From Desulfocurvibacter africanus subsp. africanus DSM 2603 (GTDB lineage Bacteria; Desulfobacterota; Desulfovibrionia; Desulfovibrionales; Desulfovibrionaceae): 39,914 bases of DNA. Position numbers and translations under genes: made by a program. The stretch is from contig NZ_AULZ01000031.1 of NCBI RefSeq assembly GCF_000422545.1, positions 1 to 39,914 on the forward strand, given 5' to 3'. Positions within the stretch are counted from its first letter, which is position 1. Every line of letters begins with the position of its first letter. Positions 6,260 to 39,838 of the stretch are shown one piece after another. Under the pieces are notes generated by a model, which saw only the letters and a program-made list of their open reading frames with translations, did not search any database and was not told the DNA's origin.

Positions 6260-6264
6260 ACATT

Positions 6265-8580: not shown

Positions 8581-8634
8581 GCGCACGCGAGTTGTCCTTG
8601 CATTCTCTGCTAGTCGAAAAGGCCATGCACTATT

Positions 8635-18381: not shown

Positions 18382-18996
18382 ATGCGAGCCCGCATTCTGT
18401 TCACGCTGGCCTTTCTGCTGCTCTGGGTGGCGCCGGTATCGCCGTCGGACAATGAAGCCGTGCTGGACGGCCTGCGCAAAGCCGCCAAGGACATCCACTC
18501 GGTGTCGGCCGATTTCGTGCAGCGCAAGAAGCTGGAGATGTTCGACGAAGTCATGATCTCCAAGGGCCGGTTGGCCCTGGTCAAGCCCGACCGCCTGCGC
18601 TGGGAGTACCTGGAGCCCGTGGCCTCTGGCTTCGCCCTCAAGGGCGGCAAGGGCCGGCGCTGGAACGAAATGATCGGTCGCATGGACGACTTCGACATCC
18701 GCCAGGATCCGGTCATGCAGGTTATCGTGGATCAACTCCTGGCCTGGACCAATGCCGATCTGGAACGCATGAGCCGCGACTTCACCCTGGAGGTGGCCGG
18801 ATCCGAGCCGGTGCAGCTCGTGCTGCGTCCGCGCGTGCCGGCCGTGGGCGGCTTTATCGAGCGGATCGCAATCCGCTACGCCGCCGACAAGCGCTCTATC
18901 CAGCGCGTGGAGGTCATGGAGCCGGGAGGAGACTCCACCCAGCTCGATTTCCAGAATGTGCGCATCAACACGCCTTTAGCCGAGGATTTGTTCTGA
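18382..18996 (+). CDS. LolA-like outer-membrane lipoprotein carrier protein
   Basis: This 204-residue predicted periplasmic protein has an N-terminal signal peptide (LFTLAFLLLWVAPVSPS). The LolA-like pattern VSADFVQRKKLEMFDEVMIS, then GRLALVKPDRLRWEY, follows. LolA carries lipoproteins across the periplasm in a hydrophobic cavity. Versions encoded in aryl-polyene clusters, next to an MMPL exporter, are thought to carry the polyene lipid instead. The ATG directly follows the TAG of the DH1 gene. Its position before the MMPL exporter and a DUF3261-type lipoprotein supports a dedicated export role. Cargo is inferred from context only. Confidence 0.85.
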   Translation: MRARILFTLAFLLLWVAPVSPSDNEAVLDGLRKAAKDIHSVSADFVQRKKLEMFDEVMISKGRLALVKPDRLRWEYLEPVASGFALKGGKGRRWNEMIGRMDDFDIRQDPVMQVIVDQLLAWTNADLERMSRDFTLEVAGSEPVQLVLRPRVPAVGGFIERIAIRYAADKRSIQRVEVMEPGGDSTQLDFQNVRINTPLAEDLF

Positions 18997-19003: not shown

Positions 19004-21427
19004 ATGGCCAGCATATCCCGCACGCCAAGCAGGTCCAGCATGACCAGCACGCCGATTCTGGCCAGGCTCTACAGAGTCTTGGAGCCCAGACGCACGCTGC
19101 TGTTCATTGCGACGCTGGGGCTGTTCCTGCTGCTCGGCGCAGGCATGCTGCGCATGCGCGTTTCCGAAAACATCATGGCCATGCTCCCGGACCAAGCCGA
19201 GAGCCTGTTCGCGGATTTCGAACTCCTGCATCGGGCGCCCTTTCTGCACAAAGCCCTGGTGACCGTAAGCGCCAAGGATGATACCGCCGCATCGGGCTTG
19301 ACTACAGCGGCACGCAACCTGGCCGAGGCCCTGGCAACCAGCCAGGCCCACGACCTGTTCACGCGGGTGGAGTACGGTCCGCCGGCCGAAGCCGGGCCGG
19401 GAACGCTCACGGCCATCCTGGCCAACCAGCCCAACTACGCCACGCCTGAGTCCCTGCGCGCCCTGGAGACCAAATTGGCTCCCGAGGCAGTACGCGAGGG
19501 TCTGCGCGCGGACTGGGCGCTCATGAACGGTCCCGAGGGCTGGGCCATGAAGGACCTTGTACGCCTGGACCCGCTCAATTTTCGCGCCACGGCTCTAAAG
19601 GGCATCGCCGCGGCCAACCTGCTGCCCGGCATCCGTCTGCGCGATGGAGTGTTCGTGAGCGGCGACGGCAGGCACGCGCTGCTCGTGGCCGAGACGCCCA
19701 TCGACATCACCGACTCGTCGGGATCGGAGCGGCTGCTGCGAGCATTCGATACCATTGCGGCGAATGTCCTGCCCGAAGGCATCACGGCCAGCATCGTCTC
19801 CGGCCATCTGTACGCGCAGGCCAACGCCACTGCCATCAAGGCCGACATGCGCCTCATCATGGTCGTGTCGTGCGTGGCCTTGCTGGCCATTTTCCTGCTC
19901 TTCCTGCGCAGCCTGCAGGCCGGCTGGGTGCTGCTCATTCCGCTGGGCGCGCTGTGCGCCGGCGGCGTGGCCGTGTCCTTGGCCTTCTCCGACGTGTCGG
20001 GCATCACGCTCGGCTTTGGCGGCGTGCTGCTGGGCATCAGCGTGGACTACGGCCTGCACGCCTTCATAGCCCTCAAGCAGGGCGGCGAAGGACAAGCCAC
20101 GCTGCTGGCCAGGGTGGCCCGGCCGGTGCTGCTGGGCGCGGCCACGACCATGGCAGCCTTCGGCGTGCTGCTCCTGTCCGATCTGCCGGCTCAGCGCCAG
20201 TTGGCCGTGTTCTCCATAGCCGGTCTGGCCATGGCCCTGCTGTTGTCGCTGGTAGTACTGCCGCAGCTCATCACCCCTTCGCCTCTCAAGCGTTTCCCGC
20301 TGCCGGATTTCACGAGACTGGCCCAAGGGCGCCGTCCGCTCATCGTGGCCCTCGGCCTGTGCCTGCTGGCCCTGGCGGGCTGGCAAGGGCGCGCCATACA
20401 TTTTGACGGCAACCTGCGCGCCCTGGGGCTGACCTCCAAGGCCATCGATGCGGCCGAGACACAGGTGCGCGAGACCTGGGGCGATGTGCGCGGCAAGGCC
20501 ATGGTGCTCGTGCAGGGCGACAGCCTGGAGCAGGCCCTGGAGGCCAATGATCGCCTGTATGCCGGCCTGCGTGGCGGGCTGCCCTCCGGCGAAGTAGTCA
20601 GTCTTGCGGCCCTGCTGCCGGCTGAATCGACCCAGGCCGCCAGTCGCGAGCGCTGGAACGCCTTCTGGGAAGACCGCGCTCCCGCCCTGCTGAAAGTCCT
20701 GCACGAGGAAGGCCGAGCCTTGGGATTCTCGAAGCAAGCCTTCGAACCCTTTCGCAACCTCATCACACAGGACGTCGCGCCCCTTTCGGCCGAGGGACTG
20801 CATGCGCTCGGCCTGGAGCGCATGTACGAGGGACTGCTCTTGCCGCCGCAGGATACCGGCAAGCCTTGGGGAGTGCTGACCCTGGCTCCGGACACAGCCG
20901 AAGCCGCTCGTTTGACGGCCGAGGCCTCGCAAGGCCAAGCCCGCTTCGTATCCCAAAGCCGTTTCGGCCGCGACCTGGGTCAAGCCCTGCGCGACGACTT
21001 CGTGCGCTTCCTTCTGCTGGCCTGCCTGAGCGTGAGCCTGATCCTGCTCATCGCCCTGCGCAGCCCGCGCCGGGTCCTGCTGGCCATGACGCCCGTGTTT
21101 GCAGGCGTGGCCGGTCTGCTGACCGTTATGGGCCTGGGCGGCATGTCCTTCAATCTCTACAACATGGCCGCGGCTATCCTGGTCATCGGCCTGGGCGTGG
21201 ATTACGGCGTGTTCATGCTCGAACGTCTGGAGCGGCGCACGGATCTGGGCACGGAGCACGCGGTGCTCCTGTCGGGCCTGACCACCTTGGCCGGCTTCGG
21301 CTCCCTGGCTCTGGCCAGCCATCCGGCCTTGAACTCCATCGGCCTCACGGTGCTCGTGGGCATGGCCGGGACGCTTCCCGGCGCCCTCCTGCTCCTGCCG
21401 GCCCTGGCGAGGAGTCAGCATGATTAG
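19004..21427 (+). CDS. MMPL/RND-family lipid exporter
   Basis: This approximately 807-residue inner-membrane transporter has the two-fold MMPL architecture. A first transmembrane span is followed by a periplasmic loop (about residues 50-280) and a five-helix bundle that includes GISVDYGLHAFIALK. A second span and loop follow, then a second bundle with GLGVDYGVFMLERLE. The paired DY motifs are the proton-relay signature. MMPL proteins in aryl-polyene and similar clusters are believed to extract lipid products from the inner membrane. The start is uncertain: ATG 19004 has no clear ribosome-binding site, and ATG 19040 (MTSTPILARLYR) has a weak AGG before it and gives a cleaner N-terminus. It overlaps the next lipoprotein gene by 8 bp. 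Confidence 0.88.
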   Translation: MASISRTPSRSSMTSTPILARLYRVLEPRRTLLFIATLGLFLLLGAGMLRMRVSENIMAMLPDQAESLFADFELLHRAPFLHKALVTVSAKDDTAASGLTTAARNLAEALATSQAHDLFTRVEYGPPAEAGPGTLTAILANQPNYATPESLRALETKLAPEAVREGLRADWALMNGPEGWAMKDLVRLDPLNFRATALKGIAAANLLPGIRLRDGVFVSGDGRHALLVAETPIDITDSSGSERLLRAFDTIAANVLPEGITASIVSGHLYAQANATAIKADMRLIMVVSCVALLAIFLLFLRSLQAGWVLLIPLGALCAGGVAVSLAFSDVSGITLGFGGVLLGISVDYGLHAFIALKQGGEGQATLLARVARPVLLGAATTMAAFGVLLLSDLPAQRQLAVFSIAGLAMALLLSLVVLPQLITPSPLKRFPLPDFTRLAQGRRPLIVALGLCLLALAGWQGRAIHFDGNLRALGLTSKAIDAAETQVRETWGDVRGKAMVLVQGDSLEQALEANDRLYAGLRGGLPSGEVVSLAALLPAESTQAASRERWNAFWEDRAPALLKVLHEEGRALGFSKQAFEPFRNLITQDVAPLSAEGLHALGLERMYEGLLLPPQDTGKPWGVLTLAPDTAEAARLTAEASQGQARFVSQSRFGRDLGQALRDDFVRFLLLACLSVSLILLIALRSPRRVLLAMTPVFAGVAGLLTVMGLGGMSFNLYNMAAAILVIGLGVDYGVFMLERLERRTDLGTEHAVLLSGLTTLAGFGSLALASHPALNSIGLTVLVGMAGTLPGALLLLPALARSQHD

Positions 21428-22085
21428 AAAGCTTGTCTTCTGCCTGTGCGCACTGGCACTGCTCGCTCTGACAGGCTGCGGTTCTTTCCGCATCGATCCC
21501 ACCTGGGAACGCCTGTCCGAGAATCAGGTCCAGGCGCTGGCGGCCAGACAATGGAATGAAGCTCCCGGCAACTGGCATATCCAACAGACCGTGCTTCTGG
21601 AATCACGCGGCCACGAACTGCTCATGTCCGGCTTCGTACGCCTGGATATGGCGGCGCGCACGGCACGCGTTGTGGCCATGAACTCGCTGGGCGTCAAATT
21701 CTTCGACCTGGAAGTCTCGGAGCAGGGCCAGACCGAACATTTCGTAGCCCCCGACCTGCGGCGCTTCCCCGAGGTCGCAACCATGCTCGCCGAGAGCGTG
21801 CGAAATATCTACCTCGTGCCGCGCCTGTCGGCCGACACGCCCGTATGGCTTGCGCCCTACGGCCCCGTGGCCAAAGCCAGTTGGCAGGAGGACCCGGTCT
21901 TCGTCTTCCTGGACCCGGCCACGGCCGAGCCCGTGCGCAAGATGAGCCCGGAACGCTTCTGGACCGTGGACTACAAGGACTACGCGCAGGCCGGCGACAG
22001 GTTGTTCCCGTCCACCGTGGTCTACACGCATACACGAGCGGGCTTGAGGCTGACGCTCAAGACCAATAAGGCAACTCTTCAATGA
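21420..22085 (+). CDS. DUF3261-type lipoprotein
   Basis: This 221-residue predicted lipoprotein has a signal peptide and lipobox LTGCG (Cys20). The body (WHIQQTVLLESRGHELLMSG, then ARVVAMNSLGVKFFDLEV) fits the DUF3261 family, which recurs in aryl-polyene clusters beside the LolA and MMPL genes. The fold may resemble LolB, the outer-membrane receptor of LolA, which would place it as the acceptor for exported lipid. That role is inference. ATG 21420 overlaps the MMPL stop, and the gene overlaps DH2 by 4 bp. Confidence 0.75.
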   Translation: MIRKLVFCLCALALLALTGCGSFRIDPTWERLSENQVQALAARQWNEAPGNWHIQQTVLLESRGHELLMSGFVRLDMAARTARVVAMNSLGVKFFDLEVSEQGQTEHFVAPDLRRFPEVATMLAESVRNIYLVPRLSADTPVWLAPYGPVAKASWQEDPVFVFLDPATAEPVRKMSPERFWTVDYKDYAQAGDRLFPSTVVYTHTRAGLRLTLKTNKATLQ

Positions 22086-22471
22086 ACAGGATGCGACAGG
22101 AAATACTCGCGGCCAGATTGGGACAATTCGGCCCTCTGGGTGAAGCCTACGTAGGCCGCTTCCGCTTCGGACATGACTTTGCTGGCTTTGCGGGCCACTT
22201 TCCCGGCTATCCGCTGCTGCCGGCAGTGGTGCAAATCCTTGTGGGTCAAATCGTGGCCGAGGATCTGGCGCAGAATGAAACCGGCGCACCCCTGGTCGCG
22301 GCAGCCGTGGAGAAAGCCAAGTTCGTGCGCGAGGTGCGGCCGGGCGAAGAAGTGCTGGCCGAATGCCGGCGCGTGATGCTCAAGGGCTGCGCGGGATTCG
22401 AGGTGCGCCTGAGCGTGAATGGCGAGGCCGCCTCGTCCTTCGTGCTCACGGCACCCCAGGACGCGGCATGA
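22082..22471 (+). CDS. Hotdog-fold dehydratase subunit, ApeI/FabZ-like (DH2)
   Basis: This 129-residue hotdog protein has the FabZ/FabA signature GHFPGYPLLP with the catalytic-type His39. The following helix reads AVVQILVGQ, where FabZ would have VxxVEALAQ, so the acidic partner residue is missing. ApeI-type proteins of aryl-polyene clusters share the LLPxVVQ pattern. DH1 at 17911 has the complementary acidic helix without GHFP. A heterodimer DH1-DH2 would rebuild a complete dehydratase for removing water from 3-hydroxyacyl-ACP. The gene overlaps its neighbours by 4 bp on both sides (ATGA junctions). Confidence 0.8.
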   Translation: MNRMRQEILAARLGQFGPLGEAYVGRFRFGHDFAGFAGHFPGYPLLPAVVQILVGQIVAEDLAQNETGAPLVAAAVEKAKFVREVRPGEEVLAECRRVMLKGCAGFEVRLSVNGEAASSFVLTAPQDAA

Positions 22472-22932
22472 GCAGAAAGGCCTATTTCCGTAACGAGCCC
22501 GGCACTCCGGCACCGTTGCGCATCAGCGTGCAGCGGCGGGTGCGCTTCGAGGAAGTGGACGTGATGGGCATAGTCTGGCACGGCCGCTATCCGAGCTTTT
22601 GCGAGGACGCCCGGGTGGCCCTGGGCGACCGTTACGGCATCGGCTACCTGGACTTCCACGGCCAGGGCATCCTCACGCCCATCAAGCAGATGCACATAGA
22701 CTACCAGCGGCCCCTGCGCTTCAAGGAAGAGTTCAGCATCGAGGCCCTGCTGCACTGGACCGAGGCCGCGCGCATCAACTACGAATTCATCCTGCGCAAC
22801 GCCGAGGGCGTGGTGACCACCACGGGCTACAGCGTGCAGCTCATGCTCGACAAGGACTTGGACCTGCTCATCGCACCGCCGCCGTTCTATCAGGATTTCT
22901 GCGCGCGCTGGAAAGCCGGGGAGCTGGCATGA
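22468..22932 (+). CDS. 4-hydroxybenzoyl-CoA thioesterase-family protein
   Basis: This 154-residue single-hotdog protein has the 4HBT active-site region VDVMGIVWHGRYPSFCEDAR (Asp31, His38, Tyr41, Glu46). This resembles YbgC/FadM-type acyl-CoA or acyl-ACP thioesterases and ApeL-like cluster proteins. It may release finished or stalled chains from ACP or edit wrong starters. The start is fixed by an ATGA overlap with DH2, and the end overlaps KS3 in the same way. The family call is good; the physiological thioester is not known. Confidence 0.85.
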   Translation: MSRKAYFRNEPGTPAPLRISVQRRVRFEEVDVMGIVWHGRYPSFCEDARVALGDRYGIGYLDFHGQGILTPIKQMHIDYQRPLRFKEEFSIEALLHWTEAARINYEFILRNAEGVVTTTGYSVQLMLDKDLDLLIAPPPFYQDFCARWKAGELA

Positions 22933-24134
22933 ACAGGGTGGCCGTGGTCGAGGCCCGGGCCGTGACGGCTCTGGGCGATCTGGACGCGACCTGGCGGGGG
23001 CTGCTGGCCGGCCGCTCGGGCATCGCTCCGGTCGCGCGCTTCGATGCCACGGGCTGCATCAGCCGCTGGGCGGCCTGCGTGCCGGGCCTGGAAAGGGATT
23101 CGACCAGCCGCAGCCTGCTTCTCTCCTTGCTGGACCGATTGCTGGACGGCGCTCCGTCCCTTGCGGCGGATACGCCTCTTTTGGCGGCCACGACCAAGGC
23201 CGGCATTGACGTGCTGGAGTCGATCGCGCGCCACGGCCACGGCCGCAAGGAAGACGTGCCGCCGTCCCTGCTGGCCGAAGAGACATCCCGCCGTCTTGGG
23301 CTGTGCGGCCGATGCGAAACCGTAAGCGGAGCGTGCGCCTCGGCCACCATCGCCCTGGCCCGTGCGGGGGCGCTCATTGCTCACGGCAAGGCCGATTCCG
23401 TGCTGGTCGTCTGCGCCGACCTGGTCAGCGAATTCGTGTTCACGGGCTTCTCATCCCTGCGCGCCCTGTCGCCCGAGCCGGCGAAACCCTTTGACGCCAA
23501 ACGCGACGGCCTGACCCTGGGTGAAGGCGCGGCGTTCCTGCTGCTCATGTCCGAGGAACGCGCCAAAGCCGAAAAACGGCCCATCCTGACCCGCCTGGCG
23601 GGATGGGGCGTGGCCAACGACGCCACGCACATCACAGCCCCGGCGCGCAACGGCTGCGGACTCATCGCGACGGTCAACCGCTGCCTGGCCGTGGCCGGAG
23701 CGAACCCGGACGATGTGGCCGCCATTTGCGCCCACGGCACGGGCACGGTCTACAACGACGCCATGGAACTGACCGCCTTCCGAAGCGTGTTCGGCGAGCG
23801 GAAGGTTCCCGTGCATGGAGTCAAGGGCGCCCTGGGCCACGCCATGGGAGCATCCGGCGGCATCGAGGCGGCCTTGTGCTGCCGCATGCTGGCCGACTGC
23901 ATGCTGCCGCCGACCATCGGCATGAGCGAGCCCGACCCGGCCGCCGCAGGCCTTGTGCGCAGCGAGCCCACTCCCCTGCCCGCAGGCCTGCTCCTGACCA
24001 CCAACTCGGGCTTTGGCGGCATCAACGCAGCCCTGCTCTTTTCTTCTCCTGGAAACATCGCGGGGGTCCGGGGGGGATCATCCTCCCCGGCCGCCGGAGG
24101 CACTCTTAGCTCACTCTCCGGAGGCCAGCCATGA
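22929..24134 (+). CDS. Beta-ketoacyl-ACP synthase, complete (KS3)
   Basis: This 401-residue ketosynthase has Cys136 (SGACASATIAL), His269 (CAHGTGTVYND) and His304 (KGALGHAMGASG). The N-terminal domain is short compared with FabF, so Cys lies about 25 residues earlier than usual. After the normal C-terminal GGINAALLFSS there is an extra Gly/Ser/Pro-rich tail of about 26 residues, encoded partly by a G-run and a palindrome at 24068-24090. It overlaps the thioesterase and the CLF2 gene by ATGA junctions. Direct coupling to a chain-length factor with Gln at the Cys position strongly suggests a KS:CLF heterodimer, as ApeO:ApeC in aryl-polyene systems. Confidence 0.88.
   Translation: MNRVAVVEARAVTALGDLDATWRGLLAGRSGIAPVARFDATGCISRWAACVPGLERDSTSRSLLLSLLDRLLDGAPSLAADTPLLAATTKAGIDVLESIARHGHGRKEDVPPSLLAEETSRRLGLCGRCETVSGACASATIALARAGALIAHGKADSVLVVCADLVSEFVFTGFSSLRALSPEPAKPFDAKRDGLTLGEGAAFLLLMSEERAKAEKRPILTRLAGWGVANDATHITAPARNGCGLIATVNRCLAVAGANPDDVAAICAHGTGTVYNDAMELTAFRSVFGERKVPVHGVKGALGHAMGASGGIEAALCCRMLADCMLPPTIGMSEPDPAAAGLVRSEPTPLPAGLLLTTNSGFGGINAALLFSSPGNIAGVRGGSSSPAAGGTLSSLSGGQP
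24068..24090. other. G-rich near-palindrome in the 3' end of the KS3 gene
   Basis: The 23-bp stretch begins CCGGGGGGGATC and ends CCTCCCCGG; it is self-complementary apart from its central base and one off-centre pair of positions. It includes a run of seven G (24070-24076). It lies in codons for the atypical C-terminal tail of KS3, 41 bp before the CLF2 start, and could fold in mRNA or mark a slippage-prone site. Confidence 0.6.
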
Positions 24135-24871
24135 GCGCGCTCGTCACGGGCATGGGCTGGCTCACTGCCGCCGGGCTGGGTCAGGGCAGGCGAGACGCCT
24201 TCGCGCTCGCCTGCGGCACTTTGCCCGAGGTGCGCCGCCAGGATCTCTTCGCCGAGCACCCCCGCTTCGGGCGCATGGATGCCTACTGCAAGGCCGGCCT
24301 GGCCGGCGTGGTCATGGCCCTGCGCGATGCCGGACTGGAAGGCCCGCTGGGCGAGTCCGCCGGACTGGCGGCGACCACCTGCGTGGGCTGCCTGCGAACC
24401 GACCTGGACTATTTCGCCACGGCCATGCAGGGCCCCATCCTGGCCAGTCCCAACCTGTTCGCCTTCACCTTGCCTACATCCATCGTAGCCGAGGCGGCCA
24501 TCTGCTTCGGACTGCGCGGCCCGACCTGCATGCTTCACGAGCCGCAAGCCTTCGGGTTGACCGGCGTGCGTGCTGGCCTGGAAGCCCTGGAGTTCGGCGA
24601 GGCGGAGCTCATGCTTGCCGGCGCCTGCGATGTCCCGGCTCTGGATTGGCCTTGCGGTCAAGGCCCGGCCGGCTCCATTTTTCTGGTCCTGGAATCCGAA
24701 CGCCGCGCCCAAGGCCGCCAGGCATACGGACGCCTGTTGCTGGACGGTGACACCGTGGCCTTGGACGCCGAATCGTCGCGCGAACCGCAGGACAGCCTGC
24801 CGGACCTCGTCCGGAGGCTGCTAACTCTTTCGATCTCAAGCGCCCCGAGGCGCAAACCCGTGGGGGAATAA
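24131..24871 (+). CDS. Chain-length-factor-type ketosynthase homologue with Gln at the Cys site (CLF2)
   Basis: This 246-residue protein corresponds to the N-terminal half of a ketosynthase (Ketosynth_N-like, as ApeC). Alignment of GPTCMLHEPQAFGLTG with the KS active site puts Gln139 exactly at the catalytic Cys position. That is the substitution known for chain-length factors of type II polyketide synthases. The downstream FGEAELMLAGACD keeps the register. The His motifs of the C-terminal half are absent because the protein stops early, so it cannot condense by itself. The ATGA overlap with KS3 suggests that they are made together and form a heterodimer controlling chain length. The ending (SAPRRKPVGE) shows no sign of recent truncation. 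Confidence 0.8.
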   Translation: MSALVTGMGWLTAAGLGQGRRDAFALACGTLPEVRRQDLFAEHPRFGRMDAYCKAGLAGVVMALRDAGLEGPLGESAGLAATTCVGCLRTDLDYFATAMQGPILASPNLFAFTLPTSIVAEAAICFGLRGPTCMLHEPQAFGLTGVRAGLEALEFGEAELMLAGACDVPALDWPCGQGPAGSIFLVLESERRAQGRQAYGRLLLDGDTVALDAESSREPQDSLPDLVRRLLTLSISSAPRRKPVGE

Positions 24872-24874
24872 TCC

Positions 24875-26140
24875 ATGCGCATGAAGCTCATCTATCCGTC
24901 CTGGCCCAAGTTGGAGCGCCAGACCGAATTTCATCTTCCGCCTCATGGCCCGGTGGTCTTCGCGGCCACGGTGCCCGAAGAGGTGGACCTGACCTTCACG
25001 GACGAAAACCGCGAGCCCGTGGACTTCGACGAGCAGGTGGACCTGGTGGGGCTGTCGGTCATGCTCACCTGCCAGATGCCGCGGGCCTTCGCCATCGCCG
25101 ATGCCTATCGGGCCAAGGGCGTCAAGGTCATCTTCGGCGGCATAGCCACCATGCTGCACGCCGAGGAAGCGGCCCTGCACGCTGATTCCGTATTTTTGGG
25201 CGAGGCCGAGGGACGCTTCGGGCAGGTCATCGAAGACTTCAAGGCCGGCAAGCTCAAACCGCTGTACGACTACCTGCGCGTGCACCCGGACATCAACCTG
25301 GTCGGCACGGCGCGGCGCGACATTCTCAAGCGCGACTTGTACAACTACCGGGGCGTGCAGATGGTCGATCTGGTGCACGCCTCGCGCGGCTGCAAGTTCA
25401 ACTGCTTTCCCTGTTGCACGAGCTACCTGGGCGGTCGCGTGTTCCGGCCCAGACCTATCGACAAGGTCGTGGAGGAGCTGGAGTCCATTCCCAACAACCG
25501 GCTGTTCATCGTGGACAACTCCCTGGCCCAGGACAAGGAGTGGCTCAAGGACCTGTTCAAGGCCATGATCCCGCTCAAGAAGAAATGGGTCTCGCACCCG
25601 GTCATGTATGATGACGAAGTGCTGGATTTGGCGGCCCAGGCCGGCTGCTGGTACGTGTACCAGGCGGTCTTCGACACTTCCGACGTCATCCGCGAGCGCA
25701 TCAAGCAGCTCAAGGCCCACGGCATTGGCATCGAGGGCACCATCCTGCTCGGCACAGATGATCAGGACGAGAACTACGTCAAGCGGCTGGTCCACTTCCT
25801 CATGGAGAACGAGCTGAACATCGCCGAGTTCACGGTGCTCACGCCTTTCCCGCACACCCCCATCCGCGAGAAGTTCGAGAAGCAGGGTCGCATCCTGTCC
25901 AATGACTGGAGCAAGTACACCTGCGACAAGGTCGTGTTCCAGCCCAAGCAGATGACGCCCGAAAAACTCCAGGAGCTCTACTACTGGGCCTGGGACGAGT
26001 TCTACGCCGAAGGCGGCTATCAGCTCAAAATGGGCAACCTGTTCAAGCAGGTCATCCGGCGCGAGATGGACGACGGAACCTACCGCCGCTACAACCCGCG
26101 CCAGGGCCGGGTCTTCAAGCGGGAGAAGCCCGCCGTTTAG
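24875..26140 (+). CDS. B12-binding-domain radical SAM protein (rSAM-B12 a)
   Basis: This 421-residue protein has an N-terminal Rossmann-like cobalamin-binding region (about residues 50-130: VDLVGLSVMLTCQMPRAFAI, then VIFGGIAT and FLGEAEG). A radical SAM domain follows with RGCKFNCFPC (Cys173, Cys177, Cys180). The classical DxHxxG motif is absent, as in BchE-like members. Such enzymes methylate unreactive carbons or form C-C bonds or rings. It starts 3 bp after CLF2 with GGGGGA upstream (MRMKLIYPS). It is the first of three tandem B12-type radical SAM genes, which suggests successive changes on one acyl chain. The reaction is unknown. Confidence 0.88.
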   Translation: MRMKLIYPSWPKLERQTEFHLPPHGPVVFAATVPEEVDLTFTDENREPVDFDEQVDLVGLSVMLTCQMPRAFAIADAYRAKGVKVIFGGIATMLHAEEAALHADSVFLGEAEGRFGQVIEDFKAGKLKPLYDYLRVHPDINLVGTARRDILKRDLYNYRGVQMVDLVHASRGCKFNCFPCCTSYLGGRVFRPRPIDKVVEELESIPNNRLFIVDNSLAQDKEWLKDLFKAMIPLKKKWVSHPVMYDDEVLDLAAQAGCWYVYQAVFDTSDVIRERIKQLKAHGIGIEGTILLGTDDQDENYVKRLVHFLMENELNIAEFTVLTPFPHTPIREKFEKQGRILSNDWSKYTCDKVVFQPKQMTPEKLQELYYWAWDEFYAEGGYQLKMGNLFKQVIRREMDDGTYRRYNPRQGRVFKREKPAV

Positions 26141-26152
26141 GCGGAGGACGCC

Positions 26153-27526
26153 ATGAGCAAGGTCTTCCTGCTGGCCACCAACACCACCACGGACCCCTAT
26201 CCGGTTTACCCGCTGGGCATGGCCGTGGTTGCCCGCGCCCTGACTGACGCAGGCCATGAGGTGCGCCAGTTCGACTTCCTCGTTTCGGGCCGCGACACGG
26301 CCGGGCTGGCAAGCGCCATCAAGCGGTTCGCGCCTGATTGCGTGGGCCTGTCCCTGCGCAACATCGACAACGTGGACTCCTTCAGCGGCGAGAGCGGCTG
26401 GTATCTGACCCAGGCCAGGGAGTTGACGCAGCTGTGCCGCGAGGCCTCGGGCGCGCCGGTGATCATCGGCGGACCGGCTTTCTCCATCATGCCCGAGGAG
26501 ATCCTGGACTACCTGGGAGCGGACTTCGGCATCGTGGGCGAAGGCGAGAAGGCCTTTCCGGAGCTGCTGGCGCGGCTCGCGCGCGGGGAGCAGCCCGAGC
26601 GCATCACGCGCTCGTCCGGGCCGGGGCTCACTGGCAGCGACATGGCCCAACCGCTGCTGGTGCGCGAGCTGGTGGATTTCTACGTAGGCGGCAGCGGCAT
26701 GGTCAATCTGCAGACCAAACGCGGCTGCCCTTTCAAGTGCGTGTACTGCACCTATCCGTGCATCGAGGGCCGCGTGCTGCGGCTGCGCGAGCCCGAAGCG
26801 GTGGTGGAGGATCTCGCGCGCATGAACGCGGAGTTCGCCATCGACCACGTGTTCTTCACGGACTCGGTGTTCAACGATCCGGGCGGCCACTACCTGGAAG
26901 TCGCCGAGGCTCTGATCAAAAGCGGGCTGAACATCAAGTGGTCGGCTTTCTTCAAGCCCATGCCCATCACGGCCGGAGAGCTGGCCCTGCTCAAGCGCTC
27001 GGGTCTGTACGCCGTGGAGCTGGGCACGGACGCTTCCTGCGACGCGACGCTGGCAGGCCTGGACAAGAGCTTCAGCTTCGCCGAGGCCCTGGCCTTCAAC
27101 CAGGCCTGCGTGGCCCAGGAAATCCCGGTGGCGCACTTCGTCATGTTCGCCGGACCGGGAGAGACCATGGACACGGTGCGCGAGGGGCTGGCCAACCTGG
27201 AGCGCCTGGAGCAGTGCGTGGTTTTCGCCTTCTCTGGCATCCGCATCCTGCCCGGCACGCGCCTGCTGGACATCGCCCGCGCCCAGGGAGTGCTGGCGGA
27301 TGATACGCCCCTGCTCAAGCCGGCCTACTACTTCTCGCCGCACGTGGACGTGCAGGCCATGCACGAAGCCATGCTGACCTCATTCGCCGGCCGCCGCGAG
27401 CGCATCTTTCCGCCCTCGGAAGGCCAGGCGCGCATGGAGGTCATGCAGCGCTTCGGCTATCGCGGCCTCATGTGGGATAAGCTGATCTCCTTCCGCAAGG
27501 ACAAGCCCAGGAGGGTCAAGACATGA
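26153..27526 (+). CDS. B12-binding-domain radical SAM protein, lipid-biosynthesis type (rSAM-B12 b)
   Basis: This 457-residue protein has a B12-binding-like N-terminal domain (GLSLRNIDNVDSF near residue 65; VIIGGPAFSIMPEE; GIVGEGE). A radical SAM core follows with RGCPFKCVYC (Cys192, Cys196, Cys199). From memory, the GLSLRNIDN pattern is characteristic of the group named lipid biosynthesis B12-binding/radical SAM proteins, reported in gene clusters proposed for ladderane lipids. It starts 12 bp after the first B12 radical SAM gene and overlaps the third by 4 bp. Role in C-methylation or ring formation on a fatty chain is inference. Confidence 0.88.
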   Translation: MSKVFLLATNTTTDPYPVYPLGMAVVARALTDAGHEVRQFDFLVSGRDTAGLASAIKRFAPDCVGLSLRNIDNVDSFSGESGWYLTQARELTQLCREASGAPVIIGGPAFSIMPEEILDYLGADFGIVGEGEKAFPELLARLARGEQPERITRSSGPGLTGSDMAQPLLVRELVDFYVGGSGMVNLQTKRGCPFKCVYCTYPCIEGRVLRLREPEAVVEDLARMNAEFAIDHVFFTDSVFNDPGGHYLEVAEALIKSGLNIKWSAFFKPMPITAGELALLKRSGLYAVELGTDASCDATLAGLDKSFSFAEALAFNQACVAQEIPVAHFVMFAGPGETMDTVREGLANLERLEQCVVFAFSGIRILPGTRLLDIARAQGVLADDTPLLKPAYYFSPHVDVQAMHEAMLTSFAGRRERIFPPSEGQARMEVMQRFGYRGLMWDKLISFRKDKPRRVKT

Positions 27527-28995
27527 GCGCGCTTCAGCCTCTCGACCGCAGGAAGATCCTGCTCGTGCACCCGCTGGGCTACTCCGCGGGCTCGGCCGGC
27601 AACGACATCTCGCGCAAGGCCAACGTCATGCCGCCGCTCGGGCTGGCCAGCATTTCGGCCTGGCTGGACTCCAAGGGCTTCAGCACGACAATTGCCGACT
27701 ATTTCGCCCGGCCGGGCTCGGACAAGACCGTGCAGGACTACCTGCGCACGGAGCGGCCGGCGTTCATCGGCTTCAGTTGCACGACCTCGTCCTTCCTGGA
27801 CGGCGCGCGCATAGCGGCCATGGCCAAGGCCGAGCTGCCCGGCGTGACCACGATCTTCGGCGGCGCGCACGTCTCGGCCCTGCGCGAGCGCGTGCTGGCC
27901 GAATTCCCGGCCGTGGACATGGTCGTGGTGGGCGAGGGCGAAGAGACCATGCGCGAGATCATGGAACGCGGCCTGGATGATCCGGCCTCGATTCCCGGCC
28001 TCGTCTGGCGGGACACCTCCGGCACGCCGACCTTCAACGGCCGCCGCGAGCACCTGCTCGACCTGGATGCCTTGCCCTTCCCGGCCTACGAGAAGCTCGA
28101 CGGATTTCCGCACGACTACACGCTGCCCATCTTCAACTATCCGCGCGCGCCCAATACGAGCTGCTCCTCCAGCCGCGGTTGCCCGTACGCGTGCAGCTAC
28201 TGCGACCGTTCGGTCTTCGGCCGCAGCTACCGTTTCAATTCCGCGCAGTACCTCTACGAGCACCTGCGCCATCTGCGCGACCGCTTCGGCATCCGCCACG
28301 TGAATTTCTACGACGACCAGTTCACCTTCCACAAAAAACGCGTGGAAGAGTTCACGGATATGCTCGTGGCAAAACCCCTGGGCATGACTTTCAACTGCGC
28401 GGTGCGGGCCAACCACATCGACGAAGACTTGATACGCCGGCTCAAGGCCGCGGGGTGCTGGATGACCAGCCTGGGCATCGAGACCGGCGACCAGGCGCTG
28501 CTGGAACGCCAGAACCGCAAGATCGACCTGGGCGACCTGGGCGAAAAGATCAAGCTGGTCAAGCGCCACGGCATCCGGGTCAAGGGCCTGCTCATGATGG
28601 GCCTGCCGGGCGAGACTGAGGAGACCATCGCCAAGACCAAGCGCTATGTGTTCTCCCTGCCCGTTGACGATCTGAACATGACCAAATTCACGCCCTTCCC
28701 CGGCTCGCCCATCTACGACGAGATCAAGGCCGCGAACGGCCAGCTCGGCGAGTTCGACGAGGATTGGCAGCGCATGGACTGCATGCACTTCCTGTTCGTG
28801 GCCAAGGGCATGACCCGCGAGCGATTGGACGAACTGCACCGGGACTTCTACAAATCGCACTTCACGCGGCCCAAGGTGCTCTGGGACTATGTGACCATGC
28901 TCTGGCGCTCGCCGCAAAGCTGGATGAGATTCCTGGCCAACCTGCGCTCGTTCTGGTCCTTCGCGCACAGCAGCAACCGCTATGGAAAGGCTTAG
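27523..28995 (+). CDS. B12-binding-domain radical SAM protein, BchE-like (rSAM-B12 c)
   Basis: This 490-residue protein has a B12-binding region (residues about 12-145: LLVHPLGY, MPPLGLASISAWL, FIGFSCTTSS, IFGGAHVSAL, VVGEGEET) and the radical SAM motif RGCPYACSYC (Cys220, Cys224, Cys227). The C-terminal part includes FTPFPGSPIYDEI. The arrangement resembles BchE/HpnJ-type enzymes. The start overlaps the previous gene by ATGA, and the stop directly abuts the glycosyltransferase gene. It completes a three-gene B12 radical SAM block. The product and reaction cannot be told from sequence. Confidence 0.88.
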   Translation: MSALQPLDRRKILLVHPLGYSAGSAGNDISRKANVMPPLGLASISAWLDSKGFSTTIADYFARPGSDKTVQDYLRTERPAFIGFSCTTSSFLDGARIAAMAKAELPGVTTIFGGAHVSALRERVLAEFPAVDMVVVGEGEETMREIMERGLDDPASIPGLVWRDTSGTPTFNGRREHLLDLDALPFPAYEKLDGFPHDYTLPIFNYPRAPNTSCSSSRGCPYACSYCDRSVFGRSYRFNSAQYLYEHLRHLRDRFGIRHVNFYDDQFTFHKKRVEEFTDMLVAKPLGMTFNCAVRANHIDEDLIRRLKAAGCWMTSLGIETGDQALLERQNRKIDLGDLGEKIKLVKRHGIRVKGLLMMGLPGETEETIAKTKRYVFSLPVDDLNMTKFTPFPGSPIYDEIKAANGQLGEFDEDWQRMDCMHFLFVAKGMTRERLDELHRDFYKSHFTRPKVLWDYVTMLWRSPQSWMRFLANLRSFWSFAHSSNRYGKA

Positions 28996-30174
28996 ATGAC
29001 TGAAGTCGCGCGCCATCTGATCGTCATTCCGGTCTACAACCACGCGGCCACCCTGCGTTCCGTGGCGGAACGCGCCATGGCCTTCGGTCCGCTGCTCGTG
29101 GTCGACGACGGCTCCAGCGACGGGGGCGCCGACGTGCTGGAAGGGCTCGGAGTCGAGGTCATCCGCCACCCGGTGAACCAGGGCAAGGGCGCGGCCATTC
29201 TTACCGCCGCGGCGCGGGCCGAGGAGTTGGGCTTTACGCATATCGTGACCCTGGATGCGGACGCCCAGCACGATCCGGCGGACATCCCCAAGTTCCTGCA
29301 GGTTCTGGCCGAGGAGCCCATGTCCATCGTGGTTGGCGCACGAGACTTCAACACGGCCAATGTGCCAGGCTCCTCGCGCTTCGGCCGCGAATTCTCCAAC
29401 TTCTGGCTGCGCGTGCAAACCGGGCAAAGATTGTCCGACACCCAGAGCGGCTTCCGGGCCTATCCCGTGAACGTTCTGCGGCGACTGAAGTTTTCCGAGA
29501 CGCACTACTCCTTCGAGGTTGAGGTGCTCGTGCGCGCGGTCTGGGCCGGCCTGAGCCTGCGCGACGTGGCCATCAGCGTGCACTACCCGCCGGCCGAGGA
29601 GCGCGTGTCGCATTTCCGGGGTTTCGTGGACAACCTGCGCCTCTCGCTGCTCAACACGCGGCTGACAGTGCGTTCCATGCTGCCCTGGCCCCATGACAAG
29701 CTCCTGCAAAGCGGCAAGACGGAAAAGGCCGTGTCCCTGCGCCATCCCGTGCGCTCGTTCAGGAACCTCCTGGAAGGCAGCGCCACGCCCATGGACATCG
29801 CCCTGTCGGTGGCCTTGGGAATATTCCTGGGCACCCTGCCGCTGCTGGGCGTGCATTCGGTGTCCATCCTTTTGGCCGCGGGCTACCTGCGCCTGAACCG
29901 GCTCGTGGCCCTGGCCGCCAGCCAATTGTGCATGCCGCCCCTGGTGCCGGCCCTGGCCGTGGAGGCGGGCCATTTCCTGCGCCACGGGCAGTTCCTTACC
30001 GAGTTGTCCATGCAGACCCTGGGCACCCAGTTCCTGGATCGGGCCTGGGAATGGGTCATCGGCTCCGTGGCCTTGGCCCCCCTGCTGGCCCTGGCCATGG
30101 GCTTCACAGCCTGGAGCGCGGCCGTGTCCATCAGGCTCCAGATGAAGGCGGTGCGGCGCTATGTCGGAAAATAG
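28996..30174 (+). CDS. GT2 glycosyltransferase fused to DUF2062 membrane domain
   Basis: This 392-residue protein has two parts. Residues 1-235 form a GT-A domain like dolichyl-phosphate mannose synthase (VIPVYNHAATL, VVDDGSSDGG, TLDADAQHDP with the metal-binding DAD, and DTQSGFRAYP). Residues about 255-390 are a DUF2062 domain with hydrophobic segments (IALSVALGIFLGTLPLLG). This fusion is known from aryl-polyene and related clusters. It likely transfers a sugar to a lipid at the cytoplasmic face of the inner membrane, perhaps building the head group. It abuts the previous stop and overlaps the acyltransferase by 14 bp. Sugar donor and acceptor are unknown. Confidence 0.87.
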   Translation: MTEVARHLIVIPVYNHAATLRSVAERAMAFGPLLVVDDGSSDGGADVLEGLGVEVIRHPVNQGKGAAILTAAARAEELGFTHIVTLDADAQHDPADIPKFLQVLAEEPMSIVVGARDFNTANVPGSSRFGREFSNFWLRVQTGQRLSDTQSGFRAYPVNVLRRLKFSETHYSFEVEVLVRAVWAGLSLRDVAISVHYPPAEERVSHFRGFVDNLRLSLLNTRLTVRSMLPWPHDKLLQSGKTEKAVSLRHPVRSFRNLLEGSATPMDIALSVALGIFLGTLPLLGVHSVSILLAAGYLRLNRLVALAASQLCMPPLVPALAVEAGHFLRHGQFLTELSMQTLGTQFLDRAWEWVIGSVALAPLLALAMGFTAWSAAVSIRLQMKAVRRYVGK

Positions 30175-31129
30175 ACAACGCCGCTGGTCCAGCCGCAGCG
30201 TTGGCGCCCGCTGGCAGCATCAGTTCTTCTATCTGCTCATCCGCCTGGGCGGGCGCTGGTCTGCGTACCTCTTCGCCCGGCTGGTGGTGGGCTGGTACAT
30301 GCTCCTGCGGCCCGACCTGCGCGAGCGCTGCCGGCCATACCTCGTGCGCCGCTTCCCCGGCGAGGGCGCGAACTTCCGCCAGAGCTTCAAGCTGAGCTAT
30401 GCCTTGGCCCAGGCAATCATCGACCGGGCCATGGTCGGCATCCTTGGTCCCGGCCGGCTGAAAGTGGAATTTCGCGGCCGCGAGAAGCTCACGCCACTGA
30501 TGGAGGCCCGCCAGGGCTTCATCCTCATGGGCGCGCACGTGGGCTGCTGGCAGGCGGCCATGTCGGCCATCGACTTCCTGGGCATGCCCGTGAACATGCT
30601 CATCACCCGCGAGGCCGGCGATGTCGACCGCCACTGGTTCGAGCACCGCAAGGGTGACATGCCCTTCAAGATCATCGACCCTTCGGGCTACCTGGGCGGC
30701 ACCCTGGACATGATCGCCGCGCTTAAAAACGGCGAGGTGGTCTGTGTCATGGGCGACCGGACCTTTGGCAGCGAAGGCAGCGCCCTGGCCCTGCCCTTCC
30801 TGGGCGAGCCGGCCCAGTTCCCGGTCAGCGCCTACAAGCTGGCCTCGGCCACGGGCGCGCCCGTGGTGGTCATGCTCTCGCACAAGAGCGGCCCGGATTC
30901 CTACGTGCTGGAGATCGCACGGATTATCAATGTTCCCGAGCGCCTGCCTCGCGGCCGGGCGGGCGTGGCCCCTTACGCCCGCCAGTTCGTACAGGCCCTG
31001 GAGGCCTTTGTGGGCGAGCATCCATACCAATTCTTCAACTTCTTCGACATGTGGGCCGGCGGTCCGGCGGAACGCACGGATGCGGCCGAACCCACGGCCA
31101 GAGCCTACGCACAAGGAGAAAAACCATGA
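30161..31129 (+). CDS. LpxL/HtrB-type lysophospholipid acyltransferase
   Basis: This 322-residue inner-membrane protein belongs to the LpxL_LpxP_like acyltransferases: an N-terminal hydrophobic region (FYLLIRLGGRWSAYLFA), GFILMGAHVGCWQAAM around residue 126, and a later VVCVMGDRTFGSEGSAL segment. Family members usually show HxxxxE or HxxxxD as the catalytic dyad. Here the residue five after His126 is Gln131, not an acid. Either this subfamily uses Gln or the alignment is off by a residue. It should acylate a lipid or glycolipid made by the GT2 partner, using ACP-bound chains from ACP2, which overlaps by 4 bp. The target is inferred from context. Confidence 0.82.
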   Translation: MSENRQRRWSSRSVGARWQHQFFYLLIRLGGRWSAYLFARLVVGWYMLLRPDLRERCRPYLVRRFPGEGANFRQSFKLSYALAQAIIDRAMVGILGPGRLKVEFRGREKLTPLMEARQGFILMGAHVGCWQAAMSAIDFLGMPVNMLITREAGDVDRHWFEHRKGDMPFKIIDPSGYLGGTLDMIAALKNGEVVCVMGDRTFGSEGSALALPFLGEPAQFPVSAYKLASATGAPVVVMLSHKSGPDSYVLEIARIINVPERLPRGRAGVAPYARQFVQALEAFVGEHPYQFFNFFDMWAGGPAERTDAAEPTARAYAQGEKP

Positions 31130-31380
31130 CGACCAGCGCCAAACTGCGCGACATTCTCGTGAACGAACTCAACCTGGAGGACGTGACTCCAGAGGAACTG
31201 ACCGACGACACTGCCCTGTTCGGCGAGGGCCTTGGTCTCGACTCCTTGGACGCCGTGGAGATCGTCGTGCTCGTTCAGAAGCACTTCGGCGTCGAGATCA
31301 AGGACATGGAGGAGGGCAAGACCGCCTTCCAGAATATCGGCAGCCTGGCCAGCTTCATCGACGCGCGGAAGGCCCAATGA
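31126..31380 (+). CDS. Acyl carrier protein (ACP2)
   Basis: This 84-residue carrier protein has the phosphopantetheine site GLGLDSLDAVEIVVLVQ with Ser40 and an acidic helix II. A strong ribosome-binding site (AAGGAGAA) lies upstream, and the ATG overlaps the acyltransferase stop (ATGA). It also overlaps KS4 by 4 bp. ACP2 is closer to aryl-polyene-type ACPs with a full FGEGLGLDSLD motif than ACP1, so the two may serve different KSs. It acts in the cytoplasm. Confidence 0.92.
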   Translation: MTTSAKLRDILVNELNLEDVTPEELTDDTALFGEGLGLDSLDAVEIVVLVQKHFGVEIKDMEEGKTAFQNIGSLASFIDARKAQ

Positions 31381-32582
31381 GCATTCGCGGCCGAGGCGTG
31401 GCCGTGGCCGGCCTGGGCTGCCTGTGCGCGGCCGGATTGAGCGTGGACGAGTGCGTCCGCGCTCTGTTCCGGGGCGAACGCGATCCCAGGCCGCCCGCGC
31501 GGCTCTCGACGAATTTGCCGACACGCAACCCCGTCTTCGAGCTGCCGGAGAGTTTCATCGCAGTCGAGCCCCTGGCCCGGCGCGAGGACACCACGCTCAC
31601 GGCCGCCATGGCCGTGGCCACTGCCCGCGAGGCCTTGACCATGGCCGGACTTACGCCGGCTGCTTTGTCCGGGCTGCGCGTGGGCGCGCTCGTGGGGACC
31701 ACCGTGGGCAGCGCCATGAACAATGAGGAATTCTATCGCGAGTACCGCACAGGCGGCCGGCCGAGCATGAAGCCCATCACGCGCTTCCTGCACAGCAATC
31801 CGGCCTCGGTGCTGGCGCGGGAGTTCGATCTGCGCGGCCCGGTGCAGACCGTGGTCAATGCCTGCTCCTCAGGCACCGACGCCGTGGGGCTGGCCGCCGA
31901 GTGGATCGCGGCCGGGTTGTGCGACGCGGTGCTGGCGGGCGGCAGCGACGAATTATGCCGCGTGACCTACCTCGGCTTCAATTCGCTCATGATCTTCGAC
32001 TCCGAGCCGTGCAAGCCCTTTGACGCGAACCGCAAGGGCCTCAACCTGGGCGAAGGCGCGGCCATGCTCCTGCTCCTGTCCGACGCGGCCGCCGTCAAGC
32101 TGGGTTGCAAGCCTCGCTTCCGTGTGCTGGGCTACGGCTCGGCCTGCGACGCTTATCATCCCACCGCGCCCAAGCCGGACGGCGCAGGCCTGCGCGCGGC
32201 CCTCTCCGATGCGTTGCGCACATCGAACCTCGCACCTTCGGATATCGCCTTTGTCAACGCCCACGGCACGGGAACCCCCGACAACGACCGCGTGGAAAGC
32301 CTGGTCCTGCCCGAGGCCTTGCCTGGAGTGCCCTATCTGTCCACCAAGGGCATGACCGGCCACACCCTGGGCGCGGCCGGAGCCATCGAGGCGGTCTTTA
32401 CCGCTGCCTGCCTGGAGCTGGGCAAAATCCCGGCCAGCCTGGGCCTTACCCAAGTGGACCCGAGTTTCCCGTCCTCCCCCGTGACGGAGCGTACACAGAT
32501 TAAGGGCAAAGCAGGTCTGTCCCAGTCCCTGGCTTTCGGCGGCAACAACAGCGCCGTGGTCATCGCTCTTGAAGATACGTAG
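31377..32582 (+). CDS. Beta-ketoacyl-ACP synthase, complete (KS4)
   Basis: This 401-residue condensing enzyme has Cys163 (VNACSSGTDAVG), His296 (NAHGTGTPDND) and His329 (KGMTGHTLGAAG), plus the FabF-like KPFDANRKGLNLGEGAA loop and GGNNSAVVI at the end. It is the last gene of the cluster and overlaps ACP2 (ATGA), so the two are likely a working pair. Its active-site flank (NACSSGTDA) differs from those of KS1 to KS3, which supports a separate step in chain building. A weak hairpin at 32600-32620 and then repeats follow. Confidence 0.9.
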   Translation: MSIRGRGVAVAGLGCLCAAGLSVDECVRALFRGERDPRPPARLSTNLPTRNPVFELPESFIAVEPLARREDTTLTAAMAVATAREALTMAGLTPAALSGLRVGALVGTTVGSAMNNEEFYREYRTGGRPSMKPITRFLHSNPASVLAREFDLRGPVQTVVNACSSGTDAVGLAAEWIAAGLCDAVLAGGSDELCRVTYLGFNSLMIFDSEPCKPFDANRKGLNLGEGAAMLLLLSDAAAVKLGCKPRFRVLGYGSACDAYHPTAPKPDGAGLRAALSDALRTSNLAPSDIAFVNAHGTGTPDNDRVESLVLPEALPGVPYLSTKGMTGHTLGAAGAIEAVFTAACLELGKIPASLGLTQVDPSFPSSPVTERTQIKGKAGLSQSLAFGGNNSAVVIALEDT

Positions 32583-32747
32583 GTAAGGCATTTGAAGGTC
32601 GAGAGGGCTACACCTTCTCGTGATCCCTGTCGAAGTCAATCTCGAAACGCCTGTGATCGCGCAAGAGTCTGGAGAGGCTTGCCCTCCCCGCTTGCCCTGC
32701 TCACCAAGGCGGACGCCCCCCGGGCTCGCGCAGTTCAATCGGTCTTC
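32583..32747. other. Non-coding region after the cluster
   Basis: This stretch between KS4 and the repeats contains no gene that I can support. An 8-bp stem CGAGAGGG / CCTTCTCG (32600-32620, one G-T pair) lies 17 bp after the KS4 stop. It lacks a T-run, so it is at best a weak or Rho-assisted terminator. Confidence 0.4.
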
Positions 32748-32876: not shown

Positions 32877-32890
32877 AGCCGATTGCTTTT

Positions 32891-39826: not shown

Positions 39827-39838
39827 CAGGCTTGTCCT

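Follow-up and report, generated by a model that had tools for sequence, protein, structure and literature searches.

What might three adjacent genes for B12-type radical S-adenosylmethionine (SAM) proteins, lined up behind a ketosynthase (KS) and chain-length-factor (CLF) pair, be doing together? The genes, here called rA, rB and rC, occupy positions 24875-28995 of a 39,914-nt contig of Desulfocurvibacter africanus subsp. africanus DSM 2603 (NZ_AULZ01000031.1; this whole stretch is referred to as the window), and a prediction made from the letters of the window had proposed that they catalyse successive steps, such as C-methylation, ring closure or C-C coupling, on one acyl chain. The answer that we favour, and regard as probable rather than secure, is that rB, rA and rC tailor in turn an exported polyene lipid made by a type II synthase of the aryl-polyene (APE) type. 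The synthase would be the work of the operon around them (9713-32582; 23 close-packed genes on the + strand), which is, to judge from its genes and their homologies, built like an APE cluster, a likeness of which the original prediction had said nothing.

Three B12-binding/radical SAM proteins

The three genes are complete open reading frames (ORFs) in tandem, each with an ATG start codon; rA follows the CLF gene after 3 nt and is followed after 12 nt by rB, rC overlaps rB by 4 nt, and the glycosyltransferase gene adjoins rC with no gap (0 nt). Each encodes an intact CxxxCxxC motif, at residue 173 in rA (CKFNCFPCC), 192 in rB (CPFKCVYC) and 220 in rC (CPYACSYC), as had been stated. The N-terminal domains, which had been called cobalamin-like, all pass the gathering threshold (32.1 bits) of the Pfam B12-binding model PF02310 in a hidden Markov model search, with 35.2 bits for rA, 78.1 for rB and 80.5 for rC. 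The corresponding check with the Radical_SAM model PF04055 (cut-off 29.5) holds for rB (46.8 bits) and rC (85.8) and not for rA (23.7), though the motif is present in rA and is kept in 33/33 rows that score at least 450 bits with the rA profile (window row counted). The domain set appears to be that of class B (B12-dependent) radical SAM enzymes, and cobalamin use is predicted for all three.

That the proteins differ strongly from one another is borne out by pairwise identities of 22.5-31.5% (over partial alignments of 146-351 residues) and by their falling into three separate deep groups of a 37-row tree. Apart from four HpnJ sequences, the rows of that tree entered it by matching the rA, rB or rC profile, so that other families are missing from it. 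The middle protein, rB, has the sequence GLSLRNIDN and had been assigned to the lipid-biosynthesis B12/radical SAM group; it is a full-length member of the NCBIfam equivalog TIGR04072 ('lipid biosynthesis B12-binding/radical SAM') at 688.1 bits (cut-off 360), and it groups with TIGR04072-like anammox rows (support 100/100). Neither rA (44.2 bits) nor rC (96.1 bits) reaches that cut-off, and they pass no other in NCBIfam: the best score of rA with any of its models is 50.3 bits, and the top models for rC are HpnJ (183.0 bits, cut-off 577.6) and BchE (170.2 bits, cut-off 481.35). HpnJ, BchE, HpnR and TsrM were rejected as identities of rA or rC, their scores lying under the cut-offs, and the families with which the original prediction had suggested comparison (HpnJ, BchE, TIGR04072) accommodate neither protein. 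In the tree, rC branches with HpnJ and with anammox rows that resemble HpnJ/BchE (90/71, not firm). The proposed phylogeny with HpnJ and anammox homologues puts rC on the HpnJ side, and leaves a strict rC+HpnJ clade borderline in the approximately unbiased (AU) test (p-AU 0.058). The closest solved structure to rB is TsrM (6wte, E=7.7e-26; the best-matching stretch is the B12 domain) and to rC it is AprD4 (6fd2, E=2.8e-25); no solved structure matches rA at 1e-3. A structure model of rA made from the window's own three paralogs reached a pLDDT of 47.2 and was discarded.

The adjoining KS:CLF pair (KS3 and CLF in Table 1) is real: KS3 has the Cys-His-His active site, CLF lacks the cysteine, and KS3 matches the Protein Data Bank (PDB) entry 6qsp of X. 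doucetiae ApeO-ApeC at 129.5 bits. Homology of CLF to E. coli ApeC was not detected in a profile search, in which CLF matches only ApeR (21 bits).

The aryl-polyene framework of the operon

Intergenic gaps measure between -14 and +12 nt at 20 of the 22 gene junctions in the operon, and 45 and 79 nt at the other two. For each gene of the window a profile was made from its relatives and searched against 18 proteins encoded in the ape region of E. coli CFT073. Counterparts there were found for 13 of the 23 genes (SDR, KS2, ACP1, PlsC, ApeP, LolA, MMPL, FabA, 4HBT, GT2, LpxL, ACP2 and KS4) with 45-446 bits, including 301 bits between KS4 and ApeO with a profile of 14 single-KS rows (fused KS-CLF proteins, described below, excluded). 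Single-sequence searches recover 12 of the 13, LolA weakly (15.6 bits) and FabA/ApeI not at all. The window contains the core APE set of an ApeO-type KS with CLF, an ApeR KS, a ketoreductase, dehydratases and two acyl carrier proteins (ACPs); KS1 and KS3 also match ApeR/ApeO as ketosynthases. Profile searches found no E. coli APE counterpart for six genes: those for the flavin adenine dinucleotide (FAD)-dependent oxidoreductase (80.9 bits against crtI_fam, cut-off 238.1), the AMP-binding ligase, the SPASM protein, rA, rB and rC. The ligase aligns with nearly the whole of the flexirubin FlxY model NF053551 (470.3 bits, cut-off 520), followed by PaaK models at 162-192 bits, and this match strengthens the case for an APE-type pathway. 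ACP1 matches PDB entry 7auf (30.2 bits), which we take to be an anammox ACP.

Table 1. The 23 genes of the operon and the displaced gene KSx, with positions in the window
Feature	Positions	Strand	Basis
KSx, putative CLF partner of KS4, displaced, opposite strand	7507..8580	-	Pfam; no active-site Cys
SDR, ketoreductase, ApeQ-like	9713..10441	+	Pfam SDR; profile 282 bits
KS1, extra ketosynthase; matches ApeR	10487..11704	+	Pfam, profile (278 bits), active-site alignment
FADox, FAD-dependent oxidoreductase, amine-oxidase/CrtI type	11717..13204	+	Pfam DAO/Amino_oxidase; no APE counterpart
KS2, ketosynthase, ApeR-like	13195..14427	+	Pfam, profile (446 bits), active-site alignment
ACP1, ApeF-like	14420..14677	+	Pfam; 81 bits
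PlsC-type acyltransferase, ApeD-like	14757..15551	+	Pfam; 73 bits
AMP-binding ligase, FlxY/PaaK-like	15542..16855	+	Start chosen from sequence; Pfam AMP-binding on longer ORF
SPASM, radical SAM/SPASM protein	16848..17906	+	Pfam; no NCBIfam over cut-off among matches listed
ApeP-like dehydratase	17911..18381	+	67 bits vs ApeP; Pfam 20.4, gathering 27
LolA-like carrier, ApeL-like	18382..18996	+	Pfam; 59 bits
MMPL exporter, ApeM-like	19004..21427	+	Pfam; 177 bits
Lipoprotein-like protein, ApeN position	21420..22085	+	No Pfam match; 14 bits vs ApeN, weak
FabA-like dehydratase, ApeI-like	22082..22471	+	45 bits by profile; single-sequence search negative
4HBT thioesterase, ApeK-like	22468..22932	+	Pfam; 89 bits
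KS3, ketosynthase, Cys-His-His	22929..24134	+	Pfam; active-site alignment; 6qsp
CLF, half-size, chain-length-factor-like, 246 aa, no active-site Cys	24131..24871	+	ketoacyl-synt, N-terminal part only
rA, B12-binding/radical SAM protein, 421 aa	24875..26140	+	PF02310 pass; no curated family over cut-off
rB, TIGR04072 rSAM_ladder_B12 member, 457 aa	26153..27526	+	TIGR04072 over cut-off
rC, B12-binding/radical SAM protein, HpnJ/BchE side, 490 aa	27523..28995	+	NCBIfam scores, tree
GT2 glycosyltransferase with DUF2062, part of ApeJ	28996..30174	+	Pfam; 183 bits
LpxL-type acyltransferase, part of ApeJ	30161..31129	+	Pfam; 98 bits
ACP2, ApeE-like	31126..31380	+	NF006617 78.7 bits (cut-off 70); 91 profile, 59 single sequence
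KS4, ketosynthase, ApeO-like	31377..32582	+	Pfam, active-site alignment, single-KS profile

The active-site alignment finds Cys-His-His intact in KS1-KS4, and the cysteine absent from KSx as well as from CLF. KSx, which matches E. coli ApeC weakly (19-21 bits), is assigned to KS4 on two grounds: it stands directly behind KS4, on the same strand, in 7/7 type I loci of related genomes, and five loci (L074, L075, L078, L082, L090) encode a single protein of 719-820 aa, the first part of which is KS4-like (ApeO-like) and the second part of which matches KSx at 51-60 bits and ApeC at 15-29. (These five fused proteins are included in the profile that gave the KS4 scores of the locus surveys in the phylum and in anammox genomes.) In L073, L076 and L081 KS4 has no KSx match that reaches 60 bits, possibly because the stretch ends there. 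In the window KSx is detached from KS4, unlike the 7/7 type I relatives, and repeats flank the operon; it looks, on these two grounds, as if the operon had been inverted between repeats or the contig misassembled. A repeat of ~130 bp is present in five full or partial copies (195-324, 7363-7492, 8633-8768, 32741-32875 and 39837-39908), which lie close to each end of the contig, to either side of KSx and past the operon end, where the copy is inverted and 96% complementary to 8634-8768. A second element of 112 nt occurs, 98% identical, at 6263-6374 and 32889-33000. Directly upstream of the SDR gene, 9068-9643 encodes a small protein that matches the BamE domain weakly, and just downstream of the operon esterase and GDSL lipase/acylhydrolase genes occupy 33000-34999 on the - strand. 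A search against Rfam gave no match, and a promoter/terminator scan of 22000-33100 yielded 1 and 4 sites against 1.1 and 7.4 in shuffled sequence, hence no enrichment.

Clusters of this general kind have been seen before. Rattray et al. 2009 (PMC2649909), in the passages that deal with them, list K. stuttgartiensis, D. psychrophila, Geobacter and Pelobacter as carriers and propose a role in the synthesis of polyunsaturated fatty acids (PUFAs); the term 'aryl polyene' is absent from the text of that paper. Their proposal for Desulfotalea psychrophila offers a different destination for the chain made in the window, namely an anaerobic PUFA or polyunsaturated-hydrocarbon pathway in which polyunsaturated chains, desaturated or built by the cluster, go into hydrocarbons such as C31:9. 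D. psychrophila has a similar cluster (radical SAM, phytoene-dehydrogenase-like protein, acyl ligase, membrane protein), makes C31:8/C31:9 hydrocarbons and is said in the same passages to lack known PUFA synthases, and the window has the oxidoreductase, the ligase, the MMPL protein and the TIGR04072 enzyme. Against this, the MMPL, LolA, acyltransferase and glycosyltransferase genes point to an exported lipid, and G. bemidjiensis, a C31:9 producer, is described in part of another paper (PMC4882568) as having tandem pfa and ole genes, another possible source. We hold a pathway of this kind to be unlikely.

Distribution of the three genes and the ladderane label

TIGR04072 members over the cut-off occur in 26/199 genomes of the source class and 84/395 of its phylum; rA, at E<=1e-80, is found in 5/199 and 55/395 (own genome counted in each case), and scores at least 650 bits with its profile in 48 of 54 phylum rA genomes. 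Across 29 rows from fetched loci rA is 63-75% identical. At the 19 best-scoring rA loci outside the source genome (of 54 genomes), rB or part of it stands beside rA in 18, the exception being L050, and a CLF gene lies upstream of rA in 17 of the 18 loci whose contig extends there (exception L040).

Thirty-four loci were fetched, picked for holding rA or rB (31 of 20 kb, and three of 13.5, 15.5 and 5.8 kb). The complete order 4HBT-KS3-CLF-rA-rB-rC-GT2 is present in L064-L066, L068-L072 and L080; a block that turns up again in other genomes is not a product of chance. Seven clusters (L083-L089) have the order 4HBT-rB-GT2, with rB alone and KS3, CLF, rA and rC absent. At a score of at least 500 bits rC is in 12/34 loci, each time with rA and rB, and KS3 and CLF accompany it in 9 of the 12 (L076 has only CLF, L063 and L079 neither). 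L067, L073 and L081 have rA and rB with no rC nearby, and in L074, L075, L077, L078, L082 and L090-L092 rA has different neighbours, ketosynthase or APE-like genes among them. Co-occurrence was counted over the 395 phylum genomes, own genome left out, with rC called high at 640 bits or more and rB at 480 or more. The 24 genomes with high-scoring rC include 22 with rA; those with high-scoring rB (n=23) have rA in 21 and high-scoring rC in 19. Fisher p values, which ignore phylogeny, are 2.8e-19 for rC-rA, 2.9e-18 for rB-rA and 3.1e-24 for rB-rC. At lower rC scores rA is present in 1/20, and that genome (G518) has its rC split over two contigs. The three enzymes have been added in a nested way, rB being the most widespread, rA next, and rC found mostly with rA; conserved order and co-occurrence are observations, as are gene content, intact motifs and homology.

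It is the conserved adjacency and the nested co-occurrence that suggest one linked route for rB, rA and rC. A division of labour can also be imagined, in which an APE-derived synthase makes a secreted glycolipid and the three enzymes work on separate portions of it, such as head group, starter acid and lipid anchor. Their membership of three separate deep groups fits such a division, as do the clusters with rB alone or with rA and no block, and the rC genes that sometimes lie on another contig, but adjacent or overlapping genes and nested co-occurrence favour the single route, and we judge separate targets to be quite unlikely.

The TIGR04072 name implies a link with anammox bacteria, and for rB this link fails in 12 of 13 anammox genomes searched. 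(The set does not include K. stuttgartiensis; several of its genomes are drafts, which makes single absences weak evidence.) The TIGR04072 cut-off is passed in one, B. carolinensis, with 437 bits; seven others score 249-340 bits and five have no match at 1e-50. High-scoring rA and rC were found in none of the 13, the best scores being 226 and 350 bits. The SPASM protein is 51% identical to its relative in B. carolinensis and 27-38% in the other anammox genomes. The B. carolinensis locus (L192) has the order ligase-SPASM-rB-SDR-ACP2, its ligase being in two ORFs, and this fits the published position of Kuste3341 (FabG) next to the radical SAM genes Kuste3342/3343 in the portion of Rattray et al. 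2009 (PMC2649909) that describes them; Kuste3342 would then correspond to rB and Kuste3343 to SPASM.

A different B12-binding/radical SAM protein is common in these genomes. X1, of 485-492 aa, is found at 11 loci in 11 of the 13 (79-100% identity), and stands beside two KS and an FAD oxidoreductase gene in 7/7 fetched loci (L195, L196, L201, L203, L205, L207, L208), which also match the ACP and dehydratase weakly (18-47 bits); a second protein, X2, 53-55% identical to X1, lies beside two KS in 4/4 fetched loci. This KS-KS-FADox-B12/radical SAM locus is a strong ladderane candidate. A clade of rB with X1 and X2 is rejected (p-AU 2e-51), and rB was set aside as a ladderane enzyme on that result and on its one passing genome among 13, a count that leaves a ladderane role for rB unsupported; the 'ladderane' label fits the window's relatives poorly. 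In the tree rA does group with X1, X2, X3 and L002, a paralog from its own genome (100/100; inner order unresolved), and a clade of rA, X1 and X2 is not rejected (p-AU 0.206). It is not an ortholog of X1: the rA profile scores 175-188 bits in the KS-KS-FADox loci, and rA forms its own clade.

Might the three enzymes nevertheless form carbocyclic rings (cyclobutane or other) along a polyene, in the way suggested for the ladderanes of anammox bacteria? The name and rB score of TIGR04072 speak for it, as does the company that rA keeps in the tree, and the part of a 2026 preprint that concerns cobalamin-dependent enzymes (PMC13142503) repeats the proposal of ladderane rings made in this way. Set against these are the low rA and rC scores and the single rB in the 13 anammox genomes, the statement in the text on D. 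psychrophila (PMC2649909) that this organism, which carries a related cluster, lacked ladderanes, and the presence in the 21-row clade of rA of L002, within 16.5 kb of which none of 24 window-gene profiles finds another match. Ladderane-type ring formation by the trio seems to us highly improbable. We also entertain, as a long shot, the idea that rA and the conserved anammox B12/radical SAM proteins of the KS-KS-FADox loci belong, as two branches, to a single clade of enzymes that build carbon rings into polyene chains bound to an ACP. The polyene lipids of phylum members with KS3-CLF-rA-rB-rC would then be carbocyclic (ladderane-like or macrocyclic), and it is the clade of rA, not TIGR04072, that would deserve the 'ladder' label.

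A proposed pathway and its known counterparts

For the APE-type pathway that we favour, substrate, order of action and every reaction are what we infer. The host is presumably an anaerobe. The FlxY/PaaK-like ligase would charge an ACP with a carboxylic starter, perhaps an aryl one, and KS4:KSx (ApeO:ApeC-like), KS1/KS2 (ApeR-like) and the second pair KS3:CLF would elongate it, while the SDR, ApeP-like and FabA-like enzymes would carry out reduction and dehydration; the FAD oxidoreductase might add or shift unsaturation. The acyltransferases and the GT2 protein would attach the chain to a lipid for export by LolA and MMPL, with rB, rA and rC in succession modifying the chain on its ACP or the head group. 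Cobalamin-dependent radical SAM enzymes are, according to a section of the preprint (PMC13142503), mostly methylases, with exceptions (BchE, OxsB, HpnJ, PbsB and 'ladderane synthase') that form or rearrange rings, and our guesses are framed by that split: rB, being TsrM-like in an operon from which the APE methyltransferase is absent, may methylate an sp2 carbon; rC, on the HpnJ/BchE side, may carry out a ring-forming or oxidative step; rA may take a step tied to the KS3:CLF product. As for successive steps on one acyl chain, adjacency and co-occurrence suggest the shared pathway, but C-methylation, ring closure and C-C coupling are not readable from sequence. Successive tailoring of one product is the simplest reading.

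Several observations weigh against the pathway that we favour. ApeH, ApeB (the methyltransferase) and ApeG have no match among the window ORFs at E<=1e-3, and these absences, with the missed FlxY cut-off, make an aryl starter only tentative. The KS3-CLF-rA-rB block is lacking from L074, L075, L077, L078 and L082, so variable is the neighbourhood of rA, and rC is on another contig in G423 and G439, the genomes of L067 and L073. At medium rC scores (499-572 bits) rA is present in 15/20 genomes and missing from 5/20; 33 of 54 rA genomes have no high-scoring rB, and 6 of the 54 have no TIGR04072 match at 1e-85. The co-occurrence thresholds were set after gaps in the scores had been seen, and the test takes no account of phylogeny. 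A B12-type domain is by itself no proof of cobalamin use, and Rattray et al. (PMC2649909), in the passages already cited, tie a related cluster to polyunsaturated hydrocarbons.

The analysis tells apart enzymes that have been lumped under the heading 'ladderane cluster', clusters that a study of the Cariaco, in its part on them, reports from several phyla with no known product. The enzyme named for ladders passes its cut-off in 1/13 anammox genomes, and a different B12/radical SAM clade is indicated there, in loci of at least seven genomes (the enzyme itself in at least 11). The APE framework indicates which chemistry to look for, and rA emerges as a highly conserved, uncharacterised enzyme. 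Titles and abstract beginnings in the open-access literature yielded no account of the KS3-CLF-rA-rB-rC module or its APE framework.

How, finally, does the operon compare with known systems? TsrM, a tryptophan C2-methyltransferase, is the best solved relative of rB, which is unlike it in scoring 120.2 bits with the TsrM model TIGR04428 (cut-off 500). HpnJ and BchE are the best-scoring models for rC, and HpnJ rows lie on the same side of the tree, but rC is far under both cut-offs; TIGR04072 has rB as a full member, with rA and rC far below. The ligase resembles flexirubin FlxY over almost the full model, at a score below the cut-off. The Kuenenia and Desulfotalea 'ladderane' type II fatty acid synthase clusters, which represent the 'ladderane' class of antiSMASH, share with the window, as their partial published description (Rattray et al. 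2009) has it, radical SAM proteins, a phytoene-dehydrogenase-like FAD enzyme, an acyl ligase, a glycosyltransferase, a membrane protein and several fabF paralogs; the B. carolinensis locus shares the ligase, SPASM, rB, SDR and ACP2, and differs from the other 12 anammox genomes in having both rB over the cut-off and the 51% identical SPASM protein, rA and rC being high-scoring in none of them. The E. coli CFT073 ape cluster has in common with the window an ApeO-type KS with CLF, a second, ApeR-type KS, ketoreductase, two dehydratases, two ACPs and thioesterase, together with the LPLAT, LolA and MMPL proteins and the GT2/acyltransferase, which a single gene encodes in E. coli and two genes encode in the window. 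To these the window adds the extra KS1, the FAD oxidoreductase, the FlxY-like ligase, the SPASM radical SAM protein, the KS3:CLF pair and, behind that pair, rA, rB and rC.

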